Part shown: piece by piece, positions 8,481-59,732 of the stretch
Numbering within the stretch: position 1 is the stretch's first letter
How the letters are laid out: every line of letters begins with the position of its first letter
Assembly: GCF_018449605.1 (NCBI RefSeq)
Contig: NZ_JAAVUW010000001.1
Span: forward strand, 930,001-994,000
Origin: Luteibacter sp. dw_328
Lineage (GTDB): Bacteria; Pseudomonadota; Gammaproteobacteria; Xanthomonadales; Rhodanobacteraceae
Length of the DNA stretch: 64,000 nt
Direction of reading: 5' to 3'
The notes under the pieces: model-generated
Database searches by the model: none
What the model was told of the DNA's origin: nothing
The model's input: only the letters and a program-made list of their open reading frames with translations
Position numbers and translations under genes: made by a program

Positions 8481-8481
8481 G

Positions 8482-19587: not shown

Positions 19588-19603
19588 CCGCGGCCTCTCC
19601 AGC

Positions 19604-20614: not shown

Positions 20615-20675
20615 GACTCGCCGCACAACAAGAACAACAACAACACACGACTCACGACGCTGGGAGATACACCCC

Positions 20676-28499: not shown

Positions 28500-28596
28500 C
28501 GCGCGCCTACAACGGAAGGCCTATTCTTTTTTCCCCACACAGGGATAGATTGCATTTTCGGTATCGGAGTTTTTTCCCAGTGCAAGGAGGCATGCC

Positions 28597-30699: not shown

Positions 30700-30761
30700 A
30701 TTGCGAGCACTAAGCGATGTCACGCCAACGCGTCAGGCACGCTGACTCAAGGAGTACACCG

Positions 30762-33374: not shown

Positions 33375-33453
33375 GCTTTCGCGACCGTCACGGTCTACCT
33401 CGGCTGAAGAAGGCGCCTGTGAAAGCAGCATCATCGACTTGAAAGGAATCATT

Positions 33454-34838: not shown

Positions 34839-34850
34839 AGGAAGGAAACC

Positions 34851-35363: not shown

Positions 35364-35418
35364 CCACCCTGCCCGCACCGCGCATCCCGCCTGCTCTCGC
35401 CGCACCGAGTGAATCATC

Positions 35419-36541: not shown

Positions 36542-39500
36542 ATGAATGACGCACCATCCAGCAGCCAGCACGGCGCCGACACCGTCCACGGACGCTTCGC
36601 CTCGGTGGCTCGCACCTATCCGGAGCGGATCGCCACCGCGTCGGACGCGTCGACCCTGACCTATGCCGAACTGGACGCCCGCAGCGATCGCATCGCGGCA
36701 GGCCTGGTGGCGGCCGGTGTGGAGCCGGGTAGCTATGTCGCACTGCTGATGGAGCGTTCCGTCGAGGCGATCGTTGCCGTGTTCGGTGTACTGAAAGCCG
36801 GTGCAGCCTATCTGCCGATCGATACGCGGTGGCCCGTTGAGCGCGTGGCGTTTGCGCTGCGGGATGCGGATGTGGCGGCCATTGTCGCTGACGAAGGGCT
36901 GGAAGTTCTCAGTGATGAGATTCCTCTCTTTACGGTTCCGGAGCTGGAGACGGCTAGTGGCGAGCGCCCTTCGCCGCTGAAGCGGCTCCTACAGGGGGGT
37001 GAGGGGGCCGATCTTGCTTATGCGATGTATACGTCCGGGTCGACCGGGACGCCTAAGGGCGTCGAGATTCGTCATGTCGCCATCCTTCGCCTGGTGCTGC
37101 GTTCGGATTACATCGACTTCGATGCGCCGAAGGTGCTGCATGCCGCGCCGCTCGGGTTCGATGCTTCCACGTTCGAGATCTTCGGTCCGTTGCTCAATGG
37201 CGGCACCTGCGTCGTCTACGGCGAGCGGGTTCCCACGGGCTGCGGCATCGCGCGCACTGTCGAACGCCATGGCGCCGAAGTAGCGTGGCTCACCGCTGCG
37301 CTGTTCAATGCCATCGTCGACGATGATGCGAGCAATCTTTCCGGCCTGCGTGTCGTACTCACCGGCGGCGAAGCGCTTTCCGTGCCGCATGTGCGCAAGG
37401 CATATGCGGCCCTTCCGGCGACGCAGCTGATCAACGGTTACGGTCCGACCGAATGCACGACGTTCGCGACGACGTATCGCATTCCACGTGAACTGCCCGA
37501 CGAACTTCGCGCGATTCCCATCGGTACGCCGATCGGCGAGACGTCGCTGCATGTGCTTGATGAGACAGGCAACGAAGTCGAACCCGGCACCGTCGGTGAG
37601 CTCTACATCGGTGGCAACGGCGTCGCACGTGGCTACCTCAACCGCCCTGAACTCACCGCTGAGCGCTTCGTCGCTGGCGGCACCCGTTATCGCACAGGCG
37701 ACCTCGTGCACTGGCTGCCCGACGGCAACCTTGGTTTCGTCGGTCGCGTCGACGGACAGGTGAAGATCCGCGGTTATCGCATCGAGACCGGCGAGATCGA
37801 CATCGTGCTTCGCGCCCTGCCCGGCGTCGCCGCGGCGGCCGTGATCGCGCGTGAAGACACACCCGGCGAAAAGCGCCTTGTCGCTTACTACGTAAGCCAC
37901 GAGGACGGCGTTACCGCCCGCAGCCTGCGCGATGCCCTCGCCCTGACCCTTCCCGACTACATGCTCCCGGTGGCCTGGGTGCGTCTCGACGCCCTCCCGG
38001 TCAACGACAACGGCAAGCTCGATCGCCGCGCCCTGCCCGCGCCGAGCAACGCGCGCCCTGAACTGGCGGCGCCCTTCGTGGCACCGCGAGGCGACGTGGA
38101 AACGCGCCTCTGCGCCATCTTCGCCGCGACACTCGGCCTGGACACGGTCGGCCGCGACGACAATTTCTTTGACCTCGGCGGCAGCTCCCTTCTTGCGACG
38201 CGTGCCATGACTCGCGTGCATGAAGAACTGTCGCCGACTCCCTCCCTGGTCGGCTTCTTCGCCGAGCCGACCCCGGCCGCCGTGGCGGCCACGATCGAAG
38301 GGCGCGCCACCCGCCAGGCGTTGGCAGGACGTTTGTCAGGTGGCGCGCCGGCGGTGGGCGAGCCGGTGGCGATCATCGCCATGGCGGGCCGCTTCCCCGG
38401 TGCGCCTGATGTCGAGACGTTCTGGGACAACCTCTGCAATGGTCGCGAGTCGATCCGCTTCTTCGCGCCGGAGGAGCTCGACCCGGCTGTGAGCCAGGCC
38501 GATCGCGACGATCCGGACTATGTCGCCGCGCGCGGTGTGATCGACGACGTGGAACAGTTCGACGCCGGCTTCTTCGGCATGTCTCCGCGCGAAGCAGAGC
38601 TGACGGATCCGCAGCAGCGACTGTTCCTGGAGCTGTGCTGGGAATGTCTCGAGCGCGGCGGTTACGTTCCCGATGCGCAGGACGTGCCGGTCGGCGTCTT
38701 CGGCGGCATGCATAACGCCACCTATTTCCAGAAGCACATCAGTGGCCGGCCCGACCTTATCGACAAGCTCGGGGCCTTCCAGGTGATGCTCGGCAACGAG
38801 AAGGATTACCTGGCCACGCGCGTCGCGCACAAGCTCAACCTTACCGGTCCGGCGATCAGTCTCAATACCGCGTGCTCCACGTCGCTCGTTGCCATCGCTC
38901 AGGCTTTTGACGCCTTGCGCGCCGGCCGTTGCGGCATGGCACTTGCCGGGGGCTCGTCGATCTCCTGCCCACCGAACAGCGGTTACATCGCGCAGGAAGG
39001 CTCGATGCTTTCGCCCGACGGTCACACGCGTACCTTCGATGCCGATGCTCAGGGCACGGTGTTCAGCGACGGTGCGGCCGTGGTCCTGCTGAAGCGTCTT
39101 TCGGATGCGCTACGCGATGGCGACCCGATCTACTCGGTGATCCGTGGCGTCGCGGTGAACAACGATGGCGGGGTCAAGGCCAGTTTTACGGCGCCAAACG
39201 CCGCCGGCCAGGCAGCCGTCATCACGATGGCGCTGGACGATGCCGGTGTGTCGCCGCGCGACATTTCCTACGTCGAAGCACATGGCACAGCCACGCCGCT
39301 AGGCGATCCGATCGAGCTGGAGGGGCTGACACAGGCCTTCCGCCAGAGCACGACCGATAAGGGCTTCTGCGCGCTAGGCTCGCTGAAGAGCAATGTCGGC
39401 CACCTCGTGATGGCCGCCGGTGCGGCCAGCGTCATCAAGACCTCGCTGGCCCTGTGCGAACGTCGCCTGCCGCCGTCCCTGCACTTCACGTCCGCCAATC

Positions 39501-42500
39501 CACGCCTCAACCTTGCCGATTCACCCTTCGTGGTGAACGACTCGCTGCGCCCCTGGCAGACTGCGGGAGGTCCCCTGCGCGCCGGTGTCAGCTCGTTCGG
39601 CGTCGGCGGCACCAATGCCCATGTGATTCTCGAGGAAGCGCCGGAGCGCGTGCCTTCCGATGTCGCCAGTGGTGCGCAGCTGCTATTGATTTCCGCACGG
39701 ACGCCGACGGCTCTGGGCAACGCTGCCGCGCGACTCGCCGACCATCTCGCCGCGCACCCGGACGGCAACCTCGCCGACACCGCGTGGACGCTCGCCCGTG
39801 GTCGCAAGGCGTTCGTCCAGCGCACCCATGTCGTCGCCACGTCCACCAACGACGCGGTGGGCAAGCTGCGCGACATCGCCGCCGCCGCGATGTGCCGCAC
39901 CTGCATCACGCCGTCACCGGGCATGGTCTTCCTCTTCCCTGGCCAGGGCTCGCAGTACGCCGGCATGGGTCGCGAACTGCATGCAACTGAACCCGTCTTT
40001 CGCGCGGCGCTCGACGAAGTCGCCAGTGCGCTGCGCGGGGAACTGGGCTTCGACCTGCGTGAGCGCATGTTCGCCGCAGACGCGGACGCGCTGAAGGCCA
40101 CCGAACTGACCCAGCCCGCGACCTTCGCCCTGGAGTACGCGCTGGCCCGCCTGTGGATGAGCCTTGGTGTCGAACCGGTGGCGATGATCGGCCATAGCGT
40201 CGGCGAGTTCGCCGCCGCCGTGCTCGCCGGCGTGATGCCGCTGGCCGCTGCCGCGCGACTTGTCGCGCGCCGCGGCCGCCTCATGCAGGCCCTTCCCGCG
40301 GGCTCCATGCTTTCCGTTCGTCTGGGAGCCGCCGAACTGCGGGCGCGCCTCCCGGACGCTCTTTCCCTCGCTGCCGAGAACGCGCCGAATGCGAGCGTGG
40401 TTTCCGGAGAGACGGCGGCCGTCGAATCCTTCCGTCTCGCGCTCGAGGCCGAGGGCGTCGCCTGCCGCCTCTTGCATACGTCCCACGCCTTCCACTCCGC
40501 GATGATGGAGCCCGTCCTGGTCTCCTTCCGTGCCGAAGTGGCGGCGGTGTCGCTCAGTGCGCCGCGCATCCGCATCGTCTCTACGTTGACAGGACTGCCG
40601 CTGACCGACGAGGAAGCCACCTCGCCGGACTACTGGACCCGGCACATGCGTCACGCCGTGCGCTTTTCGCCAGCGCTGCTGCATACGCTGGACGATGCGA
40701 CGCACGCCTTTCTCGAAGTCGGTCCGCGGCCGAGCCTCGCCTTGTTGGCCCGCCAGCACTCGCAGAGTCGCGGCCGGACGATCGTTGCCTCCCTGGGTGA
40801 CGGCCCGGCCGACGAACGTGCCGCACTGCTCGGTGCCGCCGGCGCGTTGTGGTCCGCAGGCGTAGCGGTGACGACGGCAGCCTTCGACCACCGCGAAAAC
40901 CGCCGCCACGTGCGCCTGCCCACCTACCCCTTCGAACGCAAGCGTCACTGGATCGACGCACGCCTCCCGGCGTCCGTCACTCCGATCGCCGCTGCCGCCC
41001 CTCTGCCTCAGCTTCCGCAGATCGCGCCGACCCTGGTCGCGCCGTTCGCGTCGCTCGATACCACCCCTTCCGTTTCTCCCGTCGTACCGGAGCCCCTCAT
41101 GCCGATGCCTTCCGCCCCCACCAGCAACGCTCGTCCGCAGCGCCTCGTCGGCGAACTCCTCGCGCTGTTCGAGGATGTCTCGGGAACCGAACTGGAGGGT
41201 GTCGACCCGGGCGCCAACTTCGTGGAACTGGGGCTCGACTCGCTCTCGCTCACCCAGGTGGCCTTGCAGTTGCAGAAGACCTACGCACTGAAGATCACCT
41301 TCCGCGAACTGATGGACGGCTGCTCGTCGTTCGAGCGGCTCGCGGCACACATCGATCGCCTGTTGCCGGCTGAAGCCCAGCCGGTGGCGCCCGCGTCGGC
41401 GGCCATGCCCGCCCCGGTCGCGGCGGCGGCGCCCGTGGCGATGGCCATGGGCGGCGGACTGGTCCAGGACGTGATCGCGCAGCAGATGCAGATCATGCGG
41501 GAACAGTTGGCGTTACTGGCGGGAGCCGCCGCTCCCGCATCCGCCTTTGTGGGAGCCGCTTCAGCGGCGATAGCCAGTTTGCCGCAAGCACCCATCGCCG
41601 CTGAAGCGGCTCCTACACAGAGCAGCCTGGGCGGTAGCACCAGTGACGAAGAGGCTGCGCTCGCCCATACCACCTACGACGTCAAGAAGGCTTTTGGTGC
41701 GATCGCCCGCATCCATCACGGCGCCACCGAACTGAGCGGTCGCCAGCGTGCTCGGCTCGACGCCTTCATGCGCCGCTATATCGAGCGCACGAAAACGTCC
41801 AAGGCCTATACCGAAGAGCACCGCGGCCATCTTGCCGATCCCCGCGTCGTCAATGGCTTCCGTCCGCTGCTGAAGGAGATCGTCTATCAGATCGTCATCG
41901 AGCGCTCCAAGGGCTCGAAGGTATGGGATCTCGACGGCAACGGTTACGTGGACGCGCTCAACGGCTTCGGCATGAACCTGTTCGGCTGGCAGCCCGACTT
42001 CGTGCTCGACGCGGTGCGCAAGCAGCTGGATGCGGGCTACGAGATCGGCCCGCAGCATCCGCTCGCCGGCATCGTGGCGAAACAGGTCTGCGACCTCACC
42101 GGCTTCGACCGCGCCGCCTTGTGCAATACCGGCTCCGAAGCCGTCATGGGCTGCGTTCGCGTGGCGCGCACCGTCACCGGCCGCGACACGCTGGTGATTT
42201 TTACCGGTTCCTACCACGGCATCTTCGACGAGGTGATCGTCCGTGGCACGAAGAAGCTGAAGTCCGTACCCGCCGCGCCGGGCATCCTGCGCAATACCTC
42301 CGAACATGTGCTCGTGCTCGACTACGGCACACCTGAGTCGCTGCAGATCATCCGCGAGCGCGCCTCGGATATCGCTGCCGTCCTGGTCGAGCCCGTGCAG
42401 AGCCGTCGCCCCGATTTCCAGCCGGTAGAGTTCCTCCAGGAACTGCGCGCGATCACCGAAGAATCCGGTTCGCTGCTCATCTTCGATGAAGTGGTTACCG

Positions 42501-43213
42501 GCTTCCGCGCCCATCCGCGCGGTGCCCAGGCTGTCCTCGGGATCGACGCGGATATGGCTTCCTACGGCAAGGTCGTCGGCGGCGGCTTCCCGATCGGCGT
42601 CATCGCCGGCAAGCGCCGCTTCATGGACGCGCTGGACGGCGGCCACTGGCGCTTTGGCGACGACTCCACGCCGACGGTGGGCGTCACCTATTTCGCCGGC
42701 ACGTTCGTGCGCCACCCGCTGGCCCTGGCCGCCGCGCACGCCGTACTCACCCATCTCACGAACGAAGGCGGCCAGCTGCAGACCACGCTCAACGCGAAGG
42801 TCACGGCCATGGCCGAGCAACTCAACGCGTTCTGCGTGAGCGTCGGCGCACCGATTCACGTCGTCCACTTCGCTTCGGTGTGGAAGACCACGTTTACCGA
42901 AGACCACCCGCTGCAGGACCTGCTCTTCGCCATGATGCGCAGCCGCGGCATCCACATCCTCGACAACTTCCCCTGCTTCTTCACCACCTCGCACAGCGAA
43001 GCGGATTTTGCCGCCATCGCCACGGCGTTCCGTGAATCGATTCTCGAAATGCAGGAAGCGGAATTTCTGCCGCGCCGCCGCGAAACGCCTTCCTTCGATG
43101 CCGAGCGTCCGCCCATGCCGGGTGCACGCCTGGGCAAGGATCCCGAAGGTCGTCCCGCCTGGTTCGTTCCCAACCCGGATGCGCCGGGCAAGTACCTGAG
43201 GGTCACCGCATGA
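36542..43213 (+). CDS. Hybrid NRPS-PKS with aminotransferase: A-PCP-KS-AT-ACP-AMT
   Basis: 2223 residues. Adenylation domain (about 20-515: [32 protein letters not shown]), PCP (Ser in LGGSSLL, ~545), ketosynthase (605-1030; Cys in TACSTS, His in EAHGTATP and NVGH), acyltransferase (1128-1430; GHSVGE and malonyl-type HAFH), ACP (GLDSLS, ~1564) and a class-III PLP aminotransferase (from ~1715; Lys in [10 protein letters not shown], ~2007). No KR, DH or TE. By my alignment to GrsA, the specificity residues read DAFWLGGTFK, one change from a known valine code. Expected product: an aminoacyl starter extended by malonyl, with the beta-keto group aminated. The N-terminal start follows GAGG. REP elements sit inside at 36971 and 41548-41617. 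Overlaps the next gene by 4 bp. Confidence 0.93.
36971..36993 (-). repeat. REP-like palindrome, copy 2, in coding sequence
   Basis: TCGCCGCTGAAGCGGCTCCT then ACA; core hairpin CCGCT-GA-AGCGG. It lies in frame within the adenylation domain, in the variable loop before the TSGSTG motif, where it encodes SPLKRLLQ. Confidence 0.85.
41548..41617. repeat. Inverted pair of REP-like palindromes (REPIN-like) inside NRPS-PKS gene
   Basis: Left copy 41548-41572 (TGTGGGAGCCGCTTCAGCGG and on) and right copy 41594-41617 in opposite orientation (ATCGCCGCTGAAGCGGCTCC and on), 21 bp apart. The pair is in frame and encodes an Ala-rich linker (VGAASAAIA and IAAEAAPT) between the ACP and the aminotransferase domain. 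Confidence 0.88.
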
Positions 43214-46200
43214 CGCAGAACGAGCTGGCCGCCGCCACAGCGGTCGACTATGACCCCTTCGCCGGTGCGCCGCTGTCGCGGCTTGTGCCGACCACGGAGC
43301 CGCAACGCGAGGTGTGGCTGGCATCCCGGCTGGAGCCGGAAGCCTCGCTGGCATACAACGAAGCGGTGTCGATCAACCTCAAGGGCTTGCTCGACGTGCC
43401 GGCTCTCGAAGCGGCCCTGCAGGCGATCGTCGATCGCCACGAGGCCCTGCGAGCCACGTTCAGCAGCGACGGCGAAGGTCTCTTCGTCGCCGAACACACG
43501 ACGCTCCCCGTCGCCTTCCACGACCTCTCGCTCCTTGCGCCCTTCGAAAGCGATGCGCGCATCATGGGTGCGCTCCACCGCATCGTCACCACGCCCTTCG
43601 ATCTCGAACACGGCCCCCTGGTGCGCGCGGAGCTGTTCCGCCTCGCCGCGGACCGTCACCTGCTCACCATCGCCGCACATCACATCGTGTGCGATGGCTG
43701 GTCTTTCGGCGTGATCGTGAACGATCTCGCCGCCCTCTACGCGCAGCGCACGGGCCACGGCACCAGCCCGGCCGACGCCGGCGCGTTCTCGAACTTCGCG
43801 TTGGCCGAGGCCGCGCACGCCGGCACCGGGGCAGCCCGTGAGGATGAACAGTACTGGCTGGGCCGGTTCGCCGGTCTCGTGCCCGTGCTGGACCTCCCTA
43901 CGGACCATTCCCGTCCCCGCCGTCGGTCGTTCACCTCACGGCGCGAAGACCGCACGCTGGATCCGACCGAGGTCACCGCGATCAAGCGCCTGGGCGCCGC
44001 CCACGGTGCAAGCTTCTACGCGACCCTGCTCACCGCCTTCGCCGTCCTGCTCCGCCGTATCGCGGGGCAGGACGATATCGTTATCGGCATGCCGTCGGCA
44101 GGCCAGGCGGCGGAGGGTCACGACACCCTCGTCGGTCACTGCGTCAATGTGTTGCCCCTGCGCACGCAGATCGACGACACAACCACCTTCGCGCAGTTGC
44201 TCGGCACGGTACGCACCGACCTGCTCGATGCCTTCGACCACCAGCGCTATACGCTGGGTAGCCTGCTCGCCCGGCTGTCGATCGCCCGCGATCCCTCGCG
44301 CCTGCCCCTGGTGGCCGTGCTGTTCAATCTCGATGCCCAGCTCGACGAAAGCACCGTGACCTTCCCCGGGTTGCGCTTCGATGTCGAAGCCATACCGCGC
44401 GCCTACGAGAACTTCGAGCTCTTCGTCAACGCCGTGCAGGTTGGCGGCGGCTTGCGCCTCGAATGCCAGTACAACGCCGATCTGTTCGATGGCGCGACGA
44501 TCCAGGGCTGGCTCGACGCCTACGCGATGCTGCTCCGTCAGGCCGCCATCGATCCGACCCTGGAGGCCGTCGCGCTTCCGATCGTCTCCGACGCGGTATA
44601 CCGCGAACTGGCCGCACTGCAACCCGCGCCGACGCCATTCCCCGAACTCCGCCTCGCCCACGAATTCTTCGAGCAGCAGGTGGACCGCGCGCCGGAGCGC
44701 TCGGCCGTGCGTCATGCCGACCGCTCACTCAACTATGCGGCACTCGAGTCACGGTCCAACCGTGTGGCCAATGCCCTGCGCGAGCGGGGCATCGGCCACG
44801 GCGACCTGGTCGGCCTCTCGCTTGCGCGGGGTCTCGACATGGTTGCGGCCGTTCTCGGTGTGCTCAAGTCCGGTGCCGGCTACGTGCCCCTGGATCCCAC
44901 CTTCCCGGCCGATCGTCTTGCCTTCATGGCGGAGGATGCCGCGCTGGCCGCCCTCGTCGTCGACGACAACGCGCCCCTGGCCTTTCCGTTCGACCCGACA
45001 CGCGTCCTCGCGCTTACCAGTGAAGAAGTGGTGCACGCTTCCTTCGAGCGCCCGGAACGTAATCGCAAGGCGGCCACGCCCGATTCGGTGGCCTATGTGA
45101 TCTTCACCTCCGGATCGACCGGCCGCCCCAAGGGAGTGCGCGTGCCGCACCGCGCCGCGGCCAACTTCCTCACCAGCATGCAACGCGTCCCGGGTATCGC
45201 TCCCGACGATCGTCTGGTCGCCGTCACGACCCTGTCCTTCGATATCGCCTTCATGGAGCTAATGCTCCCGTTGACCAGCGGTGCCGAAATCGTCGTCGCC
45301 GGTCGTGACGACGTGCGCGATGGCGGACAGCTGCGTCGCCTTATCGAAGAAGTGGATGCCACGATGATGCAGGCGACTCCTGCTGGCTGGCGGTTGCTCG
45401 TCGACGCCGGCTGGAAAGGTCGCCCCGCGTTCCGCGCGGTCTCCGGCGGTGAACCCCTGCCGGTCGACCTCGCCGAGGCCCTGCTCGATCGTTGCGGCGA
45501 GGTATGGAACGGCTACGGCCCGACCGAAACCACGGTGTACTCGACCTACTGGCGTGTGTCCGACCCGCGCGAAGGGATCTACATCGGGCGTCCCATCGCG
45601 AACACCACCGTGCACATCCTCGATGAGCGCGGCAACCACTGCCCACTCGGCGTGCCCGGCGAGATTCACATCGGCGGTGCCGGCGTCACGCTCGGCTACC
45701 TCGATCGTCCGCAGCTCACCGCGGAGCGTTTCGTTCCCGATCCCTGGGCGGAGGCACCGGACTCACGGATGTACCGGACCGGCGATCGCGGTCGTTGGCT
45801 CGCCAACGGCATGATCGAACACCTGGGCCGCCTGGACTTCCAGGTGAAAGTTCGCGGCTACCGCATCGAGCCGGGTGAGATCGAAAGCGTGCTCGCCGAC
45901 ACCCCCGAGGTCGGCCGCGCCGTTGTCATCGCGCGTGAGGACCGTCCGGGCGACGTGCGCCTTGTGGCTTACGTGGTGGGTCGCGAGTGTGCCACGGTCA
46001 GTGAGGACACGTTGCGCTCGCGCCTGCGTTCGCGTCTGCCCGACTATATGATTCCGCAACACATCCTCATGCTGGACGCGATCCCGCTGCTGCCCAACGG
46101 CAAGATCGACCGCAAAGCCCTGCCGCCGCCGATCGCCCACTCGGTGGCGACACCCGGTGAACGAATGGCGCCGCGCAACGACGACGAGCGCCGCGTAGCC

Positions 46201-49584: not shown

Positions 49585-49609
49585 CACACACGGCACCGGG
49601 GGGAATGCC

Positions 49610-50743: not shown

Positions 50744-51843
50744 TCGATATGAACGGTGGCGCTCCAGGCATCCGTGGCCGTCTCGGTGAACTCTGCTATT
50801 CCAGCGGCCTGCTGCATTCGCTGCAGCGGGTGCGTGCCTGGTGGCAGCGTGACCTGCGCATCCTCGCCTATCACCGCATCATGCCGCTGCCCGATCCGGA
50901 TACCTACGAATTCGACCTCGAACTGATCAGCACGCCGCCGGACCAGTTTCGCGAGCAGATGCTGCGCCTGCGCAAGTACTTCCGGCCCATGCGCCTGACG
51001 GACATCGTCGCGGCGCTGGATGCCGGCGAAGCACTGCCGCCGGACACGGTCGCCGTGACCTTCGACGACGGCTACGACGACAACTACCGCATTGCCGCGC
51101 CGATCCTCGACGAGCTGGGCGTGCCGGCCACCTTCTTCGTCTCCACCGGACATATCGACAGCGGCAAGCCGTATGCGTACGACTGGCTGGTCCATATGAT
51201 CCTGACCACCAGCGCACCTCGCCTGGTGCTGCCGGAGCTTCAGATCGATGTTCCGCTTCCGCCCGACCGCGCTTCACGGCGACGCATCGCCGGCAGCATC
51301 CTGCTGAAGATGAAATGGCTGGATGCACTGGGCCAGAGCGCCATGACCGACCGCCTCGAGTCCGAGTGGAACATGCCCTCGGCCCACGCCCGGCCGGTGG
51401 ACTGTCGCCCGATGACCTGGAACCAGGTGCGCGAGATGGAAGCCGCCGGCCTCGAGTTCGGCTCCCACGGTGTGCACCATCGCATGCTCGCCCGGTTACC
51501 ACCGGACGAGATGGAGCGCGAGATTCGCGAGTCGAAAGCCACGCTCGACCGCGAGCTTCGCAACCCGTCGATCCTCATGTCCTACCCCGTCGGTGGCGAC
51601 CGTGCATACAACGACGCGGTGATCGCGGCGACCCGCAACGCGGGGTTCAAGCTGGCCTGCAGCTACATCTGCGGGACCAATGCCGAGCCCTCCGAGAATC
51701 GCTACTCTCTCTACCGCCTTCCGGTAGAAAGCAACATGGGCCCCGGCTGGTTCGCCGCCATGCTCGCCCTGCCGCAGCTGATGAGCTATCCCACGCCCGC
51801 GCATGAGGCGAATGGCCCCAAGGAACAGGCATGTTCCCTCTGA
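50737..51843 (+). CDS. Polysaccharide deacetylase (CE4, NodB-like)
   Basis: 368 residues. After a helical N-terminal part, LRILAYHRIMP and the metal-site motif TFDDGYDDN (about residue 108) mark a CE4 domain; GSHGVHHRML carries the HxxxH-type histidines and MSYPVGGDR the conserved active-site loop. These enzymes remove N-acetyl groups from sugars such as GlcNAc. No signal peptide is clear, so it may act in the cytosol on lipid-linked oligosaccharides. Start ATG overlaps the GT2 stop; a second ATG lies 12 bp downstream. Overlaps the ligase gene by 13 bp. Confidence 0.9.
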   Translation: MVIDMNGGAPGIRGRLGELCYSSGLLHSLQRVRAWWQRDLRILAYHRIMPLPDPDTYEFDLELISTPPDQFREQMLRLRKYFRPMRLTDIVAALDAGEALPPDTVAVTFDDGYDDNYRIAAPILDELGVPATFFVSTGHIDSGKPYAYDWLVHMILTTSAPRLVLPELQIDVPLPPDRASRRRIAGSILLKMKWLDALGQSAMTDRLESEWNMPSAHARPVDCRPMTWNQVREMEAAGLEFGSHGVHHRMLARLPPDEMEREIRESKATLDRELRNPSILMSYPVGGDRAYNDAVIAATRNAGFKLACSYICGTNAEPSENRYSLYRLPVESNMGPGWFAAMLALPQLMSYPTPAHEANGPKEQACSL

Positions 51844-53093
51844 TCCTCCTCTACGTGGTACTCACGATCATCCGGCCGCAGGACTACCTGCCCGGGCTGG
51901 AGAACGTGCCCGTTCTTCCCGTCGTGCTTTTGCTCGCCTTTGCGTCATGGCTGTTCTCGAACACGAAGACGTTCGCCGCGCCGCAGTTCCTCATTCTTCC
52001 CGCCTTCCTGCTCATCCTGATGATCTCCGAAGTCACCAACGGATGGACCGGCGGCGCGATCGATGAACTCGCGCGCTTCGGTCCGGTCGTGATTGCCTTC
52101 TTTGTCTTCGGCGCAGCCTGCAACACGCAAAAGCGCGTCCGCGTTGCCATGGGCGTATTCGTCACCTGTGCCGCCGTGCTCGCCCTGCACGGCGTCGAAC
52201 AGTCGCGACTGGGTACGGGCTGGACCGGCATCCCACTGAGCGAAGGTGGACGCATCCAGTACGTCGGCATCTTCAACGACCCGAACGACCTCGGCCTGCT
52301 GTTCGCCGCCTGCCTGCCCATGTCGGTCTTTCTCGGCCGTCGCGGCACCGGGATGATGCGCCCCGTCTGGCTGGGGTGCGCCATGCTCCTGCTTTACGGC
52401 ATCGTCCTGACCAACTCGCGCGGCGCCCTGCTCGCCGTGCTCATCATCGCCGGCTGCTACGTCTGGTATCGCAAGGGTATCGTGGTGGCGGGCATCCTCG
52501 GCGTGGTCGGCCTGACCGCCATGAAGCTTGTCTCCTCGCGCATGGACGAGCTCGACGCGGGTGAGGAATCCGCAGCCGGGCGTGTCGATGCCTGGTATGC
52601 CGGCCTCGAGATGTTCCGCGACAACCCGGCTTTCGGCGTGGGCGCCGGCAACTTCACCGAATACAACGAGCTCACCGCGCACAACTCGTTCGTGCTGGTC
52701 CTGGCCGAAACCGGCTTCGTCGGATTCGTGCTCTGGCTCGCTTTCGTCGGCTACGGCTTCTGGATGATGCTCACTATCCTCCGCCACGTGCGCGTCCCCG
52801 GCACGGACCCCAGGGTCGAAGCGGAGTGGATGATGGAAAAACAGATCGCACTCACCCTGCTGCTTTCGCTGTGCGGCCTGTTCGCCGCCGCCTTCTTCCT
52901 CAGCCGCAGCTACATGGTGGTGCTGTACCTGATCGCCGCCATGGTCGCGGGCCACTACATCGGCGCACGCAAGCGCTGGCCGGAACTGCCCTTCTTTCGT
53001 CTCTCCGACGGTGGATGGCGCTGGGTACCCGCCGCCGCAGGTAGCGTCGCCGCCCTCTTCGTTCTCGTCGCCGTGCTGCTGAGAACCGTATGA
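51831..53093 (+). CDS. O-antigen ligase / Wzy-like polytopic protein
   Basis: 420 residues with about eleven transmembrane helices and the large periplasmic loop of Wzy_C/WaaL proteins. Family signatures are VLTIIRPQDYLPG at the N-terminus, GIFNDPNDLGLLFA, LTNSRGALLAVLI and TAHNSFVLVLAETGFVGF. The start IRPQDY resembles the exosortase-associated putative O-glycosylation ligases (TIGR03097). It could polymerise repeat units or ligate glycan to an acceptor in the periplasm; the sequence alone does not separate the two. Overlaps the CapK-like gene by 4 bp. Confidence 0.9.
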   Translation: MFPLILLYVVLTIIRPQDYLPGLENVPVLPVVLLLAFASWLFSNTKTFAAPQFLILPAFLLILMISEVTNGWTGGAIDELARFGPVVIAFFVFGAACNTQKRVRVAMGVFVTCAAVLALHGVEQSRLGTGWTGIPLSEGGRIQYVGIFNDPNDLGLLFAACLPMSVFLGRRGTGMMRPVWLGCAMLLLYGIVLTNSRGALLAVLIIAGCYVWYRKGIVVAGILGVVGLTAMKLVSSRMDELDAGEESAAGRVDAWYAGLEMFRDNPAFGVGAGNFTEYNELTAHNSFVLVLAETGFVGFVLWLAFVGYGFWMMLTILRHVRVPGTDPRVEAEWMMEKQIALTLLLSLCGLFAAAFFLSRSYMVVLYLIAAMVAGHYIGARKRWPELPFFRLSDGGWRWVPAAAGSVAALFVLVAVLLRTV

Positions 53094-54448
53094 GCTTCTA
53101 CGAATCCGCCCTGCGTAACGTCATCTGGCCCGCCTACGAAGGCGGCTTGCGTCGACGTGGCACGCCGCGACATATGCGACGTTACGAGAGCGACCAGTGG
53201 CTCAGCCGCGAAGCGATCGAAGCGCTCCAGTTCGAGCGCCTGCAGGCGTTGCTCGACTGGTGCTACCGCGAGGTACCGTTTTACCGCGAGCACTGGACGG
53301 CGCTGGGCATCGTACCGCGTGACATCCGGAGCGTGGCCGACTTCGCGCAGTTGCCGGTGCTGACGAAAGCCGACATCCGCAACCATGCCGACGACCTGAA
53401 AGCTCCTTCGCTGAAAGCCGGCCTCGGCTACAAGGCCACCGGCGGATCGACCGGCGAACCGCTGCGCTTTGGCTTCACCCGCGAGAGCAACGACCGCCGC
53501 GTCGCCGTGATGTGGCGTGGCTATCGATGGGCGGGTTCACGCATGGGCCGACGCACGCTCTTTCTCTGGGGCGGGCCCGTGGGTAACCCCAGCGCGAGTC
53601 ATCAGCTGAAGGACCGCCTCTACAACACCGTGTTCGCACGGAAGCTGCTCGACAGCTTCCGCATGAGCGAATCGAACCTCGCCGACTATGCCGACGCGAT
53701 CGACGCCTACCGTCCCGACGTCATCGTCGGTTATGTGGGCCCGCTGGTGCGCCTCGCCGAGTGGCTGCTGGCGAACAACCGCCGCGTGGCTTCCCCCGCG
53801 TCGATCATCGGTGCGGCAGAGGCCCTGCACCCGTTCCAGCGGCAGATCATCGAGCGCGCCTTCGGCGCGCCGGCCTTCAACACCTATGGCTGCCGCGAAT
53901 TCATGCTGATCGCTTCGGAGTGCGAGCACCGCGACGGCCTGCACGTCAACGCGGACCATCTCGTGGTCGAGACACTGGATGCCTATGGCAAGCCGACAAC
54001 GACGGGCAGCGGCGAGATCGCCATCACCGACCTCTACAACTACGGCATGCCATTCATTCGCTACGTCAATGGCGACATGGCCACCCACGCCGACGGCAAA
54101 CCCTGCGCCTGCGGTCGCGGGCTGCCCAGGCTGGCATCGGTGGACGGACGCAAGCTCGACGCCATTCGTACACCCGCAGGCCACGTCCTGCCGGGAGAAT
54201 TCTTCCCGCACATGCTCAAGGACGTGCCGGGCCTGACACGCTTTCAGCTGGTACAGCGCCGCCTCGATCGGCTCGACCTGTCGATCGTGCGTGGCGATGC
54301 ATTCAACGACGCATCGCTCGATTACATCCGCCATGAAGTCGCCAAGGTACTCGGTGAGAGCGCCGAGCTGCACTGCCACTTCGTCGACGATATCCCGCTG
54401 ACCCGCAGTGGCAAGCTGCGCGTCACCGTCTCGGAGCTGACTGAGTGA
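53090..54448 (+). CDS. CapK-like adenylate-forming enzyme (phenylacetate-CoA ligase family)
   Basis: 452 residues of the PaaK/CapK branch of the ANL superfamily. Its P-loop-like motif is KATGGSTGEPLRFG (about residue 110); other signatures are IIGAAEALHPFQRQII, FNTYGCREFMLIASECEH, and YVNGDMATHADGKPCACGRG with paired cysteines. CapK homologs are common in capsule and EPS loci, but their reaction is not well defined; activation of a carboxylic acid for transfer is likely. In this operon it could activate a group for the glycan or work with the NRPS whose second A domain is dead; both are inference. Confidence 0.88.
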   Translation: MSFYESALRNVIWPAYEGGLRRRGTPRHMRRYESDQWLSREAIEALQFERLQALLDWCYREVPFYREHWTALGIVPRDIRSVADFAQLPVLTKADIRNHADDLKAPSLKAGLGYKATGGSTGEPLRFGFTRESNDRRVAVMWRGYRWAGSRMGRRTLFLWGGPVGNPSASHQLKDRLYNTVFARKLLDSFRMSESNLADYADAIDAYRPDVIVGYVGPLVRLAEWLLANNRRVASPASIIGAAEALHPFQRQIIERAFGAPAFNTYGCREFMLIASECEHRDGLHVNADHLVVETLDAYGKPTTTGSGEIAITDLYNYGMPFIRYVNGDMATHADGKPCACGRGLPRLASVDGRKLDAIRTPAGHVLPGEFFPHMLKDVPGLTRFQLVQRRLDRLDLSIVRGDAFNDASLDYIRHEVAKVLGESAELHCHFVDDIPLTRSGKLRVTVSELTE

Positions 54449-55563
54449 ACATCACCCACTTCGTCGAGAACCTCAATCGCGGCGGCCTGGAGCGGATGGT
54501 GCTCGATCTGGTCACGGAACAACGGCGCCTCGGTCACAAGGTGCAGGTGGTCTGCCTGTTCGAGCGCGGCTCGCTCGCCGGCGAACTGGACGGCCTAGGC
54601 ATCCCGGTGCACGCCTGCCACAAACAGCCCGGCTTCGACCTTCGCGCCGTTGGCCGCGCCCGCGCTCACATTGCCGCGCACCACACCGAAGTGCTGCATA
54701 CACACAATGCGGTGGCGCACTACCAGGCCGTGCTCGCCTCGGCCGGCATGGGCATCCGCCAGGTGGTCAATACACGTCACGGCATGGGCGGACAGCAGAA
54801 ACCCAGTCGCCGCGAATGGCTGTTCCGTCGCGCCATGAAAGCGACCGATGCCGTGGTGGCCGTCTGCGAGGCCGCGCGCCGCGATGCGGTGCACCGCGGC
54901 ATCGTACCGGCGGCGAAGGCTTGCGTGGTACCCAACGGTATCGTGCTTGGCGGCTTCGATCTGGCCTCGGACACGATGCACGAGCGGCTCACGCGCATGC
55001 TCAACATCCCCACGGGCACGCGCATCATCGGCACGGTGGGCCGGCTCAACTGGGCCAAGGACCAGGCCAGCCTCATCCGCGCCTTCCGTGAGGTGCACCA
55101 GAGCCGCCCGGATACCGCTCTCGTCCTGGTCGGCGATGGCGAGCTGCGCGAGACCCTGCGTGCCTGCGCCTTCGATGAGGGCGTGGCCGGCGCCGTGCAT
55201 TTCCTCGGCGACCGCAACGACGTACGCCAGTTGCTGCAGGGTTTCGACCTGTTCGTACTCTCGTCGATCACGGAGGGCTACTCGATGGCCCTGCTCGAGG
55301 CCTGCGCGACCGGCCTGCCGATCATCGCCACGGACGTCGGTGGCAATGCAGAGATCGTTCGCGACGACGCCACCGGACGACTGGTCCCCGCGGCCGATGC
55401 ACCCGCCCTGGCCAACGGCATTCTCGGCCTGCTCCACGAATCCCAGCGCGCCGCGTCGTTCGGCCGTGCGGCGCGTCAGTGGGTGGAAACCCATGGCTCG
55501 CTCGAAGCCATGGCGACGCGGTATGGAAAGCTCTACTTTGGCGACATGGAGGCGGTCTCATGA
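54445..55563 (+). CDS. GT4 glycosyltransferase (TIGR03088-like)
   Basis: 372 residues, GT-B fold. The GTG start (overlapping the previous stop by 4 bp) gives NITHFVENLNRGGLERMVLD, close to the EPS-associated Stp2/TIGR03088 transferases. The donor site is SSITEGYSMALLEACATGLP with the Ex7E motif, and IIGTVGRLNWAKDQ opens the C-terminal domain. It transfers a sugar from a nucleotide donor to the growing lipid-linked glycan on the cytosolic side. Sugar specificity is not predictable. Confidence 0.9.
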   Translation: MNITHFVENLNRGGLERMVLDLVTEQRRLGHKVQVVCLFERGSLAGELDGLGIPVHACHKQPGFDLRAVGRARAHIAAHHTEVLHTHNAVAHYQAVLASAGMGIRQVVNTRHGMGGQQKPSRREWLFRRAMKATDAVVAVCEAARRDAVHRGIVPAAKACVVPNGIVLGGFDLASDTMHERLTRMLNIPTGTRIIGTVGRLNWAKDQASLIRAFREVHQSRPDTALVLVGDGELRETLRACAFDEGVAGAVHFLGDRNDVRQLLQGFDLFVLSSITEGYSMALLEACATGLPIIATDVGGNAEIVRDDATGRLVPAADAPALANGILGLLHESQRAASFGRAARQWVETHGSLEAMATRYGKLYFGDMEAVS

Positions 55564-56732
55564 AGATCCTGGTCCTGACCAACCTGTTCCCCACGCCGTG
55601 GGATCCGCGCCGTGGCACCTTCAATCGCCAGCAGTTCCAGCGGCTGGCCGAGCGCCACGAGGTGGATGTCCTCACCGCCGTCGATTTCCGTGAACGCATG
55701 GCCGGCGCCCAGGGCACCGTGAACGTGCCGGGCGTCAAGCGCGACCATTTCACGTTCTACCACCCGCCGGGCATCGGTCGCTTCCTCAACGCGTTCTGCT
55801 TCTTCGCCAGCGTGATGTGGCAGCGCGGCCGTGAGCTGCGCGCCGCGCGCTACGACGTACTGCTGGCCAGCTGGGCGTTTCCCGATGCGGTTGCCGGTGC
55901 CTGGGTAGCGCGACTGCTGGGCATACCCTATGTGGTCAAGGTGCATGGCAGCGATCTCAACGTGCAGGCCGAAGCCCGCCTGCGCCGCCCGCAAATTCGT
56001 GCGGCCCTGCGCGGCGCAGGCGCCGTGGTGGCGGTAAGCAAGGCCCTCGCGCGCAAGGCCGTCGAACTGGGTGCGCCCGCGGAAGCCGTCGAAGCGATTT
56101 ACAACGGCGTCGATACCCGCGTATTCAACCGCGGCGATCGCACCGCGGCGCGCCAACGGCTAGGCCTTCCGGCCGAAGTGCCCATCGTGCTCTACGCAGG
56201 TAACCTCAAAGCCACCAAGGGCTGTCACGACCTTATCGAAGCGTTCCCCATGCTGGTTAAGCGCCATCACGATGCACGTCTGATCTATGTTGGCGACGGC
56301 GCCTCACGAGCGAACCTCGAGGACCGCGCCGCCTCGCTCTGCTGTGCGCCGGCCGTGCGTTTCGAAGCCGCCGTGGACCATGCCGCGCTAGCTGACTGGT
56401 TTCGCGCCGCCGACGTGCTCTGCCTGCCGAGCCACAACGAGGGCGTGCCGAACGTCGTGCTCGAGGCCATGGCCTGCGGCACTCCGGTAGTGGCGACGGC
56501 CGTCGGCGGCATTCCGGAAGTGCTGCCGGAGACGGCGGGCATCCTCGTACCGGTCCATCAGCCCCATGAACTGGGCACGGCCCTGGTCGAAGTCTTCGAA
56601 CGTCATTTCGATCCCGCCGTGATCGCCGCGCATGCGGCTACCTTCCGTTGGGACGAGAACATCGATCGCCTGGAGCACACGCTCCATCGCGTAGCCGCCG
56701 GCGAACCGGCACATCTTGGCGCCAACGCATGA
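55560..56732 (+). CDS. GT4 glycosyltransferase
   Basis: 390 residues, GT-B fold. MKILVLTNLFPTPWDPRRGT at the N-terminus, VVKVHGSDLNVQAEARL in the acceptor domain, LYAGNLKATKGCHDLIEAF, and the Ex7E donor motif in SHNEGVPNVVLEAMACGTP. Start chosen at the ATG overlapping the preceding stop (ATGA) and at the family N-terminus; the frame runs back to 55479. A cytosolic glycan-building enzyme of the same operon. Confidence 0.9.
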   Translation: MKILVLTNLFPTPWDPRRGTFNRQQFQRLAERHEVDVLTAVDFRERMAGAQGTVNVPGVKRDHFTFYHPPGIGRFLNAFCFFASVMWQRGRELRAARYDVLLASWAFPDAVAGAWVARLLGIPYVVKVHGSDLNVQAEARLRRPQIRAALRGAGAVVAVSKALARKAVELGAPAEAVEAIYNGVDTRVFNRGDRTAARQRLGLPAEVPIVLYAGNLKATKGCHDLIEAFPMLVKRHHDARLIYVGDGASRANLEDRAASLCCAPAVRFEAAVDHAALADWFRAADVLCLPSHNEGVPNVVLEAMACGTPVVATAVGGIPEVLPETAGILVPVHQPHELGTALVEVFERHFDPAVIAAHAATFRWDENIDRLEHTLHRVAAGEPAHLGANA

Positions 56733-57367
56733 ACTGGAAACTGAAAAAACACGACTTGCTCGGCTTGCTGCCGGAGGCGCTCGTGCTGACGCGCACGCGC
56801 GACCATGACCTGCGTTATCTCAGTTTCGACGACGGTCCGGACCCTCAGCACACGCCCAGGCTTCTGGACACGCTGGCACGACACAACGTGAAGGCGAGTT
56901 TTTTCCTGGTCGGCGAGAAGATCGAGCAGTACCCGGAGATCGTCCAGCGCATCGTGGCGGACGGCCACATGATCGGCAATCACTCCTACAGCCATTGGTC
57001 CTTCACCAACATGGATCTGCGCAAGCAGCTCGACGAGGTGTACCGGACCGACGCGCTGTTGCGCCTGTTCGACAACCGGCCGCACCACCGGATGCGCCCC
57101 CCGCATGGATACGTCGGGGCAAAGCTTCTCCTGCATTTCGCGCGCCGCAAGCGCAGCTTCATTTACTGGTCGTACGACAGCCTCGATTACCAGGACCGTC
57201 CGATCGAGGCGCTCATCTCGCGCCTGCGCGACGACCCGCCCGCCGCTGGCGACATCGTGCTCATGCACGATGACAGCGACAAGGCCGCCGAGGCGCTCGA
57301 CGTCATGCTGCCGGAATGGCTCGGCCAGGGCATTCGCTTCGGCGCCCTGCCCGGCAACGCCCCTTGA
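56729..57367 (+). CDS. Polysaccharide deacetylase (CE4, NodB domain only)
   Basis: 212 residues, nearly all NodB domain. The five CE4 motifs are visible: SFDDGPDPQHTP (metal-binding Asp), HSYSHWSF (HxxxH), RPPHGYVGAK, a motif-4-like YWSYDSLDYQD and DIVLMHDD. No signal peptide or membrane segment, so it is expected in the cytosol. Second deacetylase of the operon: free amino groups on sugars would result. ATG overlaps the previous stop by 4 bp. Confidence 0.9.
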   Translation: MNWKLKKHDLLGLLPEALVLTRTRDHDLRYLSFDDGPDPQHTPRLLDTLARHNVKASFFLVGEKIEQYPEIVQRIVADGHMIGNHSYSHWSFTNMDLRKQLDEVYRTDALLRLFDNRPHHRMRPPHGYVGAKLLLHFARRKRSFIYWSYDSLDYQDRPIEALISRLRDDPPAAGDIVLMHDDSDKAAEALDVMLPEWLGQGIRFGALPGNAP

Positions 57368-58530
57368 ATATCCTCTACCACCACCGGACGCGCGGACGCC
57401 ACGTCGAGGGCGTGCATATCCGCGGGATCGTGCACGCGCTCCGCGATCTGGGGCATGACGTATCGGTCATGTCGTTCCCCGGTGCGGATCCGGAACGTGA
57501 GGCGCCCGAGGCTGCCACCGGTGGACGCGGCGGTCTCGCAGGCCTGGTCACGAAGCTGCCAGGCGTGGTCTTCGAGATGTTCGAACTGCTCTACAACCTC
57601 GTCACGCTGGCCCGCATGCGCCGCGCATGGCGCACGCATCCGCCGAAGCTGATCTACGAGCGTTACTCGCTATTCCTCTTCGCGACGATATGGCTGGCCC
57701 GTCGTCGCGGCATCCCGCTGGTGCTGGAAATCAACGATTCCGCCCTGGTCGATCGCGTGCGACCGCTGACCATGAAGGGTCTGGCGCGACGCATCGAAGG
57801 CTGGTGCCTGCGCCACGCCACCGGACTGGTCTTTATCTCCACCTACTTCCGCGACGCGGCCATCGCGGCCTACGGCGACATCGCGCCGTCGGTGATCTCA
57901 CCAAACGCCGTCGACCTGTCTCGTTTCGATCCCGCGCGCTTCGACCGCGAGACATTACGCCACGAACGCGGGCTGAGCGACCGCACCGTGTGCGGGCATA
58001 TCGGCGCCTTCGCCCATTGGCATGGCGTGGACGACTTCGTCGAGGCCATCGCCAGCCGTCTCCACGACGTGCCGGAGCTGGCCCTGGTCTTCGTCGGCGA
58101 CGGCAAGACGCTCCCCGCGGTGCGCGCCCTGGTGGCCGAGCGGGGCCTGAGCGACCGGGTGCTCCTGCCCGGCCGGGTGCCCCACGAGGACGTCGCCAGC
58201 TGGATCGCCTGCATGGACTATGCCGTGTTGCCGAATTCCAATCACTACGGCTCTCCCATGAAGCTGTTCGAGTTCATGGGTATGGGCGTTCCCATGGTCG
58301 CACCGGATTACGCGCCGGTCGCCGAAGTGATCGCCGATGGCCGCACGGGATGGTTGTTCCCGCACGGCGATGCCGCCGCCTGCGTCGAGCGCGTGCTCGA
58401 GCTGGCCCGGCTGACCGATGAACGCAGGCGCGTGGGACATGCCGCGCGTGACTACATCGCCAGCGAGCGGCAGTGGCGCAACAACGCCGAACAACTGCTT
58501 ACCCTGGTGCCAGCCGGAGTCGCCGCGTGA
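57364..58530 (+). CDS. GT4 glycosyltransferase (TTG start)
   Basis: 388 residues, GT-B fold. A TTG start overlapping the preceding TGA (TTGA) gives NILYHHRTRGRHVEGVHIRG, where family similarity begins; the frame stays open further upstream inside the deacetylase gene. Donor-site region NHYGSPMKLFEFMGMGVPMV; domain opener GHIGAFAHWHGVDDFVEA. Third GT4 of the operon, so four glycosyltransferases in all here plus the initiating enzyme at 22496, suggesting a repeat unit of several sugars. Confidence 0.88.
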   Translation: MNILYHHRTRGRHVEGVHIRGIVHALRDLGHDVSVMSFPGADPEREAPEAATGGRGGLAGLVTKLPGVVFEMFELLYNLVTLARMRRAWRTHPPKLIYERYSLFLFATIWLARRRGIPLVLEINDSALVDRVRPLTMKGLARRIEGWCLRHATGLVFISTYFRDAAIAAYGDIAPSVISPNAVDLSRFDPARFDRETLRHERGLSDRTVCGHIGAFAHWHGVDDFVEAIASRLHDVPELALVFVGDGKTLPAVRALVAERGLSDRVLLPGRVPHEDVASWIACMDYAVLPNSNHYGSPMKLFEFMGMGVPMVAPDYAPVAEVIADGRTGWLFPHGDAAACVERVLELARLTDERRRVGHAARDYIASERQWRNNAEQLLTLVPAGVAA

Positions 58531-59732
58531 TCGTCCTCGCCCTGATCGTCTTTCTCCTGCTCGCTTTCGCCGCTGCGGTGACGGTGGCTATCCGCGCGCG
58601 CAACATGCAGTACTGGCTGTGGGGCTACCTCACCCGGCATAAGCGGCCGGAGGTTTCCGGACCTGTGCACGTCATGTTCTGCTTTGTCGACCACTTCGAG
58701 CCGAACTGGGGCCGGGTAGACATGGACACGCAGCGCCGTCGCGTCGATCGCTGGTGCACCGACTACCGCGCCCTGGCCTCGCGTCACCGCGACGCCGACG
58801 GCCGCGTGCCGCAGCACAGCTTTTTCTATCCCGAAGAAGAATACGTGGAGGAGCACCTCGACAAGATCGAGTCGCTCTGTGCCGATGGCTACGGCGAGAT
58901 CGAGATCCACCTCCACCACGACAACGACACGCCGGAAAACTTCGTCGCCACGATCGATCGTTTCAACCGGCTGCTGCACGACAAGCACAACGCGTTGCCG
59001 CGCGACCCGGTGACTGGCCAGCTGCGTTTCGCCTTCATCCACGGCAACTGGTGCCTGGATAACTCACGCGCGGATGGCCGCTGGTGCGGTATCAACAACG
59101 AATTGATCCTGCTGCGCGAGCTTGGTTGCTACGCCGACTTCACTCTGCCTTCGGCGCCTAGCGATACGCAGACGCGAATGTCGAATGCCATCTACTACGC
59201 CACCGACGACCCGCATAAGTGCAAGTCGCACGATACCGGCGTACGCATGCGCGTGGGCGGCGAGCCGTCGGGCGACCTGCTGATCATCCAGGGCGTATTG
59301 GGCCTGAACTGGAAGAACCGCCGCTTCGGCATCATCCCGCGCATCGAGAACTCCGATATCCGCCGTGGCTCACCGCCCACGCCGTCTCGCGTGGACCAAT
59401 GGGTGCGTACGGGTATCCATGTCGAAGGCCGGCCGGAGTGGACCTTCATCAAGATCCACACCCACGGTACCCAGGAAGGCGACATGGACACCCTCCTCGG
59501 CCAGCCTGTCGACGCGATGCACGATTACCTGGAGTCGACGTACAACGACGGCCGCGACTACGTCCTGCACTACGTCACCGCCCGAGAGATGTACAACATC
59601 GCCAAGGCCGCCGAAGCCGGCATGACCGGCGACCCCGGCCGCTACCGCGACTTCGAGCTCCCCAAACCCGGCAAAGCAACCGCGACCGCTGTTGTAGGAG
59701 CCGATTCATCGGCGATCCAAACCGTGTCGTAA
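58527..59732 (+). CDS. WalW-like (CE4-related) protein, membrane-anchored
   Basis: 401 residues. GTG start overlapping the preceding stop gives a short N-terminal transmembrane helix (2-22, LALIVFLLLAFAAAVTVAI). The rest is a TIM-barrel-like domain with HVMFCFVDHFEPNWG, YGEIEIHLHHDNDTPENF, FAFIHGNWCLDN, and WTFIKIHTHGTQEGDM. Conserved acidic and His motifs resemble the WalW branch of polysaccharide deacetylases, but I hold this with moderate certainty. The last ~13 residues (VGADSSAIQTVS region) are encoded by a REP-like repeat, so the natural C-terminus was probably changed. Last gene of the 11-gene operon. Confidence 0.75.
   Translation: MIVLALIVFLLLAFAAAVTVAIRARNMQYWLWGYLTRHKRPEVSGPVHVMFCFVDHFEPNWGRVDMDTQRRRVDRWCTDYRALASRHRDADGRVPQHSFFYPEEEYVEEHLDKIESLCADGYGEIEIHLHHDNDTPENFVATIDRFNRLLHDKHNALPRDPVTGQLRFAFIHGNWCLDNSRADGRWCGINNELILLRELGCYADFTLPSAPSDTQTRMSNAIYYATDDPHKCKSHDTGVRMRVGGEPSGDLLIIQGVLGLNWKNRRFGIIPRIENSDIRRGSPPTPSRVDQWVRTGIHVEGRPEWTFIKIHTHGTQEGDMDTLLGQPVDAMHDYLESTYNDGRDYVLHYVTAREMYNIAKAAEAGMTGDPGRYRDFELPKPGKATATAVVGADSSAIQTVS

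Follow-up and report, generated by a model that had tools for sequence, protein, structure and literature searches.

Amino acids on bacterial polysaccharides usually occur singly and are attached by dedicated ligases. Why does a surface-glycan operon open with two megasynthase genes of the nonribosomal peptide synthetase–polyketide synthase (NRPS-PKS) type? The question is raised by positions 36542–59732 of a 64,000-nucleotide stretch of Luteibacter sp. dw_328 (contig NZ_JAAVUW010000001.1, 930,001–994,000; hereafter the window), where eleven open reading frames (ORFs) all lie on the + strand, as stated in an original prediction made before any database search. We found the coupling of NRPS-PKS and glycan genes to be real, conserved and unusual, and the operon to be the middle part of a larger exopolysaccharide (EPS) locus, the rest of which lies on both sides. 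On balance we favor, with modest confidence, a reading in which a short, cationic peptide-polyketide is assembled on the carrier, moved onto an amino sugar of the EPS repeat, and then flipped, polymerized and exported. No description of this locus was found in the open-access literature searched, a scope outside which most subscription papers fall; the original prediction, made without searching, likewise knew of no described pathway with this gene combination. The NRPS-PKS text available from PMC9040847 concerns a fungus.

Gene order and conservation

Nine of the ten gene junctions overlap, as had been claimed, eight of them by 4 bp and CE4a/Wzy by 13 bp, and the only gap is the 25 bp between NRPS2 and GT2. 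The 7-bp overlap also claimed needs the ATG at 50737 as an alternative CE4a start, from which GT2/CE4a would overlap by that length. All gene starts in the operon are inferred, the least certain being those of CE4a, GT4a, WalW (GTG) and GT4c (TTG). Profile matches to Pfam and NCBIfam bore out the GT2, the three GT4s, the two CE4 deacetylases, the O-antigen ligase and CapK, but not WalW, which had zero matches in either collection. Consensus scans of the + strand between 36000 and 61500 returned 0 promoter-like sites and 3 terminator-like sites, fewer than in shuffles.

Of 101 genomes (own genome and relatives), 47 have a CapK match at E 1e-20; 40 of these matches showed at least 45% identity and the other 7 showed 26–31%. 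Since the 40 include 22/22 other same-genus genomes, a chance run of ORFs was rejected. PKS1 and NRPS2 stand upstream of GT2-CE4a-Wzy-CapK in 21/21 same-genus stretches fetched (in L052, PKS1 is cut by the contig), while the 22nd genome is represented by a 6-kb contig holding only the NRPS2 end (L085). Gene order in relatives, put forward earlier as a check, is kept across Luteibacter, where 11/11 named loci with full flanks show the whole run from NRPS2 to WalW in the same order. Dyella, Rhodanobacter and Pinirhizobacter follow a similar plan with variations, many loci having Wzx between Wzy and CapK. Several Dyella/Rhodanobacter loci carry a reverse-strand cassette at the GT4c position (L101:13651-17087, L104:13640-17078, L088:13672-17227), which in L101 contains genes for an oxidoreductase-epimerase fusion and for a glycosyltransferase. 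The aminotransferase end of PKS1 (AMT) was detected in 89/197 family genomes and 11/369 class genomes, the own genome being counted in each.

Domain composition of the megasynthases

PKS1 and NRPS2 together comprise 12 domains in four modules, and not the “8.7 modules” first counted. The A, C, KS, AT and T domains carry their catalytic motifs, the third A domain being the exception. For this and the following results, locus counts (domain typing, codes, motifs and nucleophile residues) include duplicate assemblies, e.g., L067/L121, L062/L092, L065/L101, L058/L097 and L059/L108. The KS displays TACS in 30/30 loci, and the AT displays GHSxGE in 30/32 and HAFH in 32/32, the latter presumably marking a malonyl-type domain; the A1 core motif was found in 26/31 loci and that of T1 in 28/29. 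For C1, HHxxxDG was retained in 56/61 loci, three of the misses being cut at the locus edge. In the two that truly differ (L118 and L122), the motif of this C domain, which belongs to the second part of the NRPS, is replaced, and the domain may be inactive or altered.

The A1 code of our locus is DAFWLGGTFK, and 28 loci display either DAFW[LIM]GGTFK or DALW[LF]GGTFK, codes that we take from signature tables to be Val-like. Variants are DVQFVAHVVK in L063 and L064, presumably Pro-like according to the same tables, and DSRFMGEVFK in L093 and L094. For A2, the own code DIMQVGGVYK belongs to the form DIMQ[VI]GG[VI]YK of Luteibacter and some others, with DILQxGxx[WY]K elsewhere; we assume both to be Gly-like, the DIMQ form less certainly. 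The A2 code in L095, L111 and L114 is Ser-like, an assignment again resting on our use of signature tables. In the favored scheme, PKS1 would load a Val-like amino acid, extend it with malonate and transaminate the resulting beta-ketone; the product would be a beta,gamma-diamino acyl thioester, namely 3,4-diamino-5-methylhexanoyl if the starter is Val.

The third A domain (A3) appears to be dying while its partners are kept. Its core motif was present in 0/30 loci typed as degenerate, in Luteibacter and several other lineages, and the binding-pocket Asp and Lys in 0/28 degenerate domains read. In L058, L059, L061, L066 and L105, A3 is absent altogether, leaving C-A-T-C-T. The neighboring C2 retains HHxxxDG in 50/51 loci, and T4 its Ser in 61/61. 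Among the three closest genomes, the ratio of non-synonymous to synonymous substitution rates (dN/dS) was 0.10–0.12 for A3 vs 0.02–0.04 for A2, so A3 evolves faster, yet not freely. The 13 loci with a live A3, a count that includes duplicates, give a Gly-like code for it; where it is dead or missing, the A2 code is Gly-like in every such locus and never Ser-like. The simplest reading of these patterns is that A2 charges both carriers, T3 and T4, and T4 is thus probably charged by A2. NRPS2 would place one Gly-like residue on T3 and, via the second C domain, one further residue on T4, where the finished chain would remain. Pfam detected no terminal thioesterase or reductase in PKS1 or NRPS2, nor in the fused relative L063, so chain release must be in trans. 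In other relatives, a short megasynthase form ends AMT-C-A-T. The own genome contains two more carrier-domain-rich NRPS/PKS regions (G000:C1:663000-706000 and 836000-864000), with one open frame of 10,721 codons.

The surrounding EPS locus

The positions first given cover only part of the pathway. The operon alone cannot make the polymer, and the remaining genes lie on both sides (Table 1). Upstream of PKS1, 19 relatives carry PGT (19/19), u348 (18/19), GMC (18/19), UGD (16/19) and, at ≥74% identity, Epi (13/19), some of the misses being due to stretch edges. No exporter is encoded in the operon itself; a Wzx/Wzc/Wza set lies next door, in a convergent block encoding a methyltransferase, a FemAB-like GNAT protein, Wzx (PF01943), a matchless protein, GalE, two hydrolases, an outer-membrane barrel, an XrtA-type tyrosine kinase, Wzz/Wzc and Wza. 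The genome’s single Poly_export match sits in this block. The components looked for as marks of a Wzx/Wzy-dependent pathway were all found, namely PGT for initiation, Wzy-like and Wzx-like proteins, and Wzc/Wzz with kinase and Wza, the kinase model TIGR03018 being matched below its cut-off. One pathway is supported by the nine overlapping junctions, the conserved order, UGD-Epi-GMC-PGT-u348 upstream, the export block downstream and the lack of a thioesterase. We propose that the operon would be the chain-assembly part of a Wzx/Wzy-type EPS locus with a built-in thiotemplate acyl-donor machine.

That an NRPS and several glycosyltransferases share one operon could also fit the reverse direction, in which sugars would decorate a secreted peptide to give a glycopeptide or glycolipopeptide surface molecule, cf. 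mycobacterial glycopeptidolipids. We consider this very unlikely. PGT, Wzy, Wzx, Wzc and Wza make up a polymer pathway, and the first domain of PKS1 is an A domain for an amino acid, with a Val-like code, whereas glycopeptidolipid loci, in which NRPS and glycosyltransferases make a surface molecule with a fatty acid on its peptide core and which have no Wzy/Wza, begin their NRPS with a lipid-loading ligase.

Other features of the surroundings were also recorded. The model of u348 reached a pLDDT of 89.6, and a fold search returned zero PDB matches below E 1e-3. Between u348 and PKS1 (25610–36261) lie an autotransporter, a Big_2 gene and three MrpH_C adhesin-like genes, a cassette that varies in kind among the Luteibacter genomes fetched. 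A hybrid sensor kinase and a LuxR-type regulator (15055–18020), divergent from UGD and in the same position in several Luteibacter genomes, may control the locus, and a GAF-PAS-GGDEF diguanylate cyclase lies near it at 12542–14014.

Table 1 Features of the EPS locus (window positions unless stated otherwise).
Feature	Position	Strand	Basis or remark
UGD nucleotide-sugar 6-dehydrogenase	18217..19587	+	nearest UDP-ManNAcA-dehydrogenase/Cap5O group
Epi nucleotide-sugar epimerase	19562..20614	+	family match
GMC-type oxidoreductase	20487..22346	+	true start probably later
PGT initiating polyprenyl-phosphate sugar transferase	22496..23896	+	PF02397
u348 secreted-looking beta-sandwich protein	24511..25233	+	listed ORF start 24187
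PKS1, A-T-KS-AT-T-aminotransferase (class III)	36542..43213	+	Pfam, domain typing, binding code, motifs
NRPS2, C-A-T-C-A(dead)-T	43210..49584	+	Pfam, domain typing, binding code, motifs
GT2 membrane glycosyltransferase	49610..50743	+	PgaC/NodC-like, below cut-offs
CE4a polysaccharide deacetylase	50740..51843	+	PF01522; PgaB/PdaB-like, below cut-offs
Wzy/O-antigen-ligase-family membrane protein, presumed polymerase	51831..53093	+	PF04932; TIGR03097 below cut-off
CapK/PaaK-like adenylate-forming ligase	53090..54448	+	family match; conservation
GT4a glycosyltransferase	54445..55563	+	XrtA-system stp2-like, below cut-off
GT4b glycosyltransferase	55560..56732	+	family match
CE4b NodB-like deacetylase	56729..57367	+	FDDGP / NHS..H / RPP.G motifs
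GT4c glycosyltransferase	57364..58530	+	stp3-like, below cut-off
WalW-like protein	58527..59732	+	N-terminal hydrophobic helix; weakly CE4-like predicted fold
Convergent export block	L158 (G000:C1:994001-1013900) 4183-16383, i.e., 4–16 kb beyond the window	convergent to operon	family matches

Candidates for acceptor formation and chain transfer

Under the favored scheme, PGT, GT2 and the GT4s would build a lipid-linked sugar on which CE4b, probably in the cytoplasm, would expose an amine. The CE4b motifs FDDGP, NHS..H and RPP.G are invariant (13/13 aligned sequences) and no signal peptide was seen by eye, so CE4b could free the acceptor amine ahead of the flipping step, following a NodB logic. 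The idea that deacetylation exposes the acceptor amine was already part of the original prediction and is plausible. The peptidyl group would then pass to the exposed amine, most likely by means of a Cys-nucleophile hydrolase and its pseudo-hydrolase partner, and Wzx, Wzy, Wzc/kinase, Wza and the beta-barrel would flip, polymerize and export the decorated polymer.

The hydrolase pair, which lies outside the window, is predicted to be the better candidate for offloading. In L193, L196, L199, L200, L203 and L208 it starts ≤0.5 kb from where the NRPS2 match ends, and in L204 ~2 kb on. The nucleophile elbow of Hyd365 carries Cys in 20/20 copies reaching it (two fragments fall short), while at the elbow position Hyd258 has Arg in 17/20 and Gln in 3/20. 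A Cys hydrolase with a pseudo-enzyme partner next to a thioesterase-less NRPS would make a good candidate for chain transfer. A precedent for the chemistry is offered by lincosamide synthetase, which joins a carrier-tethered amino acid to an amino sugar through an amide bond (PMC4351081). That system differs in making a free antibiotic, with a single amino acid and no polymer.

Three other candidates were considered. CapK was rejected as a transferase dedicated to the NRPS, since genomes that lack this megasynthase conserve it too. The case for the FemAB-like protein as the general transfer enzyme was weakened, as similarity searches found it in only 3 fetched relatives and the own genome, though many flanks were too short to extend to it. 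WalW was rejected as an acyltransferase because the best match of its weak model (mean pLDDT 68) was a CE4 fold, namely chitin deacetylase 5z34 (E 1.6e-4, the sole PDB match below 1e-3).

CapK, which looks intact, also enters another possible linkage, in which one of the peptide's amines would form an amide with a uronic acid carboxyl, perhaps activated by CapK, in place of an N-acylated amino sugar; UGD and Epi would make the uronic acid. UGD and Epi are indeed in the locus, and the sibling locus L075 carries an AsnB-type amidotransferase. We keep this linkage as a live but improbable alternative, given the conservation of CapK in megasynthase-free loci and the terminal thioester that would be left without a use.

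Comparison with known systems

The locus most resembles parts of several known systems. As in exosortase-A (PEP-CTERM/EpsH) EPS loci, the export block matches TIGR03016, TIGR03018, TIGR03100 and TIGR03101, its two hydrolases are of that system’s type, and the GT4/Wzy genes match the stp2, stp3 and PEP_O_lig_1 models. None of the XrtA accessory families was matched above its curated cut-off (TIGR03016, 03018, 03100, 03101, 03088, 04063 and 03097 all fell below). In contrast to such loci, the Luteibacter locus contains a full NRPS-PKS and no exosortase match, EpsH (PF09721) having 0 matches in the own genome at E 0.01.

The NodC-like GT2 and NodB-like CE4b scores recall Nod-factor synthesis by NodC/NodB/NodA and suggest a deacetylate-then-acylate logic. 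The differences are that CE4b reached a NodB score of 101 bits vs a cut-off of 240, that GT2 fell below the NodC cut-off, and that the acyl donor here would be an NRPS carrier; NodA was absent from the operon family matches, and no genome-wide NodA search was made. In iturin/mycosubtilin-type modules, KS-AT-ACP followed by an aminotransferase sets a beta-amino group; these start from a fatty acid and PKS1 from an amino acid.

Points against a single product

Directly shown here are the domain order, gene content, synteny, motifs and the pattern of presence and absence, along with a dead A3 whose C2 and T4 partners persist; the substrates, acceptor, product and transfer step are inferred. Several observations weigh against a single decorated polymer. 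The enzymes proposed for transfer from T4 are candidates, and CapK has no assigned role in the scheme. The glycan core, moreover, often occurs by itself. We tested for AMT a subset of loci picked for having no full megasynthase in the fetched flank, i.e., 28 genome handles, two of which are repeats (G089/G612 and G047/G607), leaving 26 distinct genomes. At E 1e-60, 21/28 handles had no match anywhere and 7 had one, so that 19/26 distinct genomes have the glycan core without this megasynthase. The peptide is, on this comparative evidence, an optional add-on, an accessory part of the glycan pathway. In G507 and G482, two of the genomes in the set of Dokdonella and others, the aminotransferase end lies ~30 kb upstream of CapK. 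L090 (Rhodanobacter sp. C03) and L106 (a metagenome-assembled genome) have no AMT match and keep GT2. Upstream in L090 is a GNAT-FemAB fusion (L090:2222-3958), and upstream in L106 are ORFs without a Pfam match (L106:1992-5406).

In the other direction, GT2, CE4a or GT4c is missing from some NRPS-bearing loci of the Dyella/Rhodanobacter/Pinirhizobacter plan. A tie of GT2 to the NRPS was rejected: GT2 is unmatched in eight NRPS-bearing loci (L087, L088, L089, L095, L104, L111, L114 and L142), and two loci have GT2 without NRPS. Because the core exists alone and these genes are missing in places, the NRPS/glycan linkage could be one of neighborhood.

Of 16 family loci chosen for fetching around AMT, 14 contain the hydrolase pair or polysaccharide genes in the stretches fetched, and the other two, L191 (GT2 and methyltransferase only) and L205 (cut by the contig), have no clear EPS context. 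Outside the family, nine class genomes have an AMT match; none of the four fetched (L206, L207, L208 and L209) shows a clear EPS locus. The megasynthases of L207 and L209, from other gammaproteobacterial families, are each followed by a sulfotransferase-family gene (L207:12091-12951, L209:6082-6942); in the stretches fetched, L208 has the hydrolase pair and no polysaccharide matches, and L206 has neither. Upstream of L207 (L210) are weak matches, at 24–30%, to the hydrolase pair, Epi and UGD. The machine can thus serve other products.

These out-of-family homologs, and a glycan core that can exist alone, lend some weight to the possibility that the product of the NRPS-PKS is a diffusible peptide-polyketide in free form, such as a signal, siderophore or antibiotic, and that its genes are merely co-transcribed with the EPS genes so that both products occur together in biofilms. 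We judge this unlikely, as the operon has no thioesterase and no small-molecule exporter, and the megasynthase is repeatedly embedded between PGT and Wzy in several genera. The sole pump genes nearby, at 61374–63778 between the operon and the convergent export block of the own genome, are efflux genes of the OEP and CusB/HlyD type, and in L079 the export block starts 0.9 kb past the WalW match, which leaves no room for pump genes.

In favor of the coupling, pairwise distances within the genus run in parallel for two sets of sequences, with r 0.79–0.95 between KS, AMT, A2 and C2 on one side and CapK, Wzy, GT2, CE4a and GT4a on the other. The corresponding values are 0.66–0.86 for T4 and 0.60–0.84 for the dead A3, for which the means are approximate since L058 and L059 have no A3 and their matches are probably to other A domains (close-pair values are unaffected). 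Agreement was lower for A1 (r 0.49–0.59), a hint that the loading domain may have been exchanged. The comparison had no housekeeping control, so the correlations would indicate co-inheritance and no more, which the species tree alone may explain.

Overall, the single product of the original prediction holds in part: the coupling recurs across genera, no thioesterase is present and the export set is adjacent, but the core is often found without a megasynthase (19/26).

Implications

More tentatively, and with somewhat less confidence than in the favored scheme itself, we suggest that Luteibacter would make a Wzy-type polysaccharide whose repeat is decorated with a thiotemplate peptide-polyketide, perhaps 3,4-diamino-5-methylhexanoyl-Gly-Gly, and that NRPS modularity would act as a system of coat diversification. 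If the group is 3,4-diamino-5-methylhexanoyl-Gly-Gly, each N-acylated site would gain 256.15 Da by our calculation, or 199.13 Da if it has a single Gly. The modular variation behind this suggestion comprises Val-like or Pro-like starts, Gly-like or Ser-like codes, and one or two extensions. Relatives also offer a natural experiment, in which the same glycan core occurs with, without and with variant megasynthases, and in which the final A domain is decaying next to C and T domains that persist. If an NRPS-PKS does decorate the polymer, genome mining that sorts clusters into either “saccharide” or “NRPS/PKS” would misinterpret loci of this kind, and bacterial surface chemistry would gain the combinatorial range of natural-product assembly lines.

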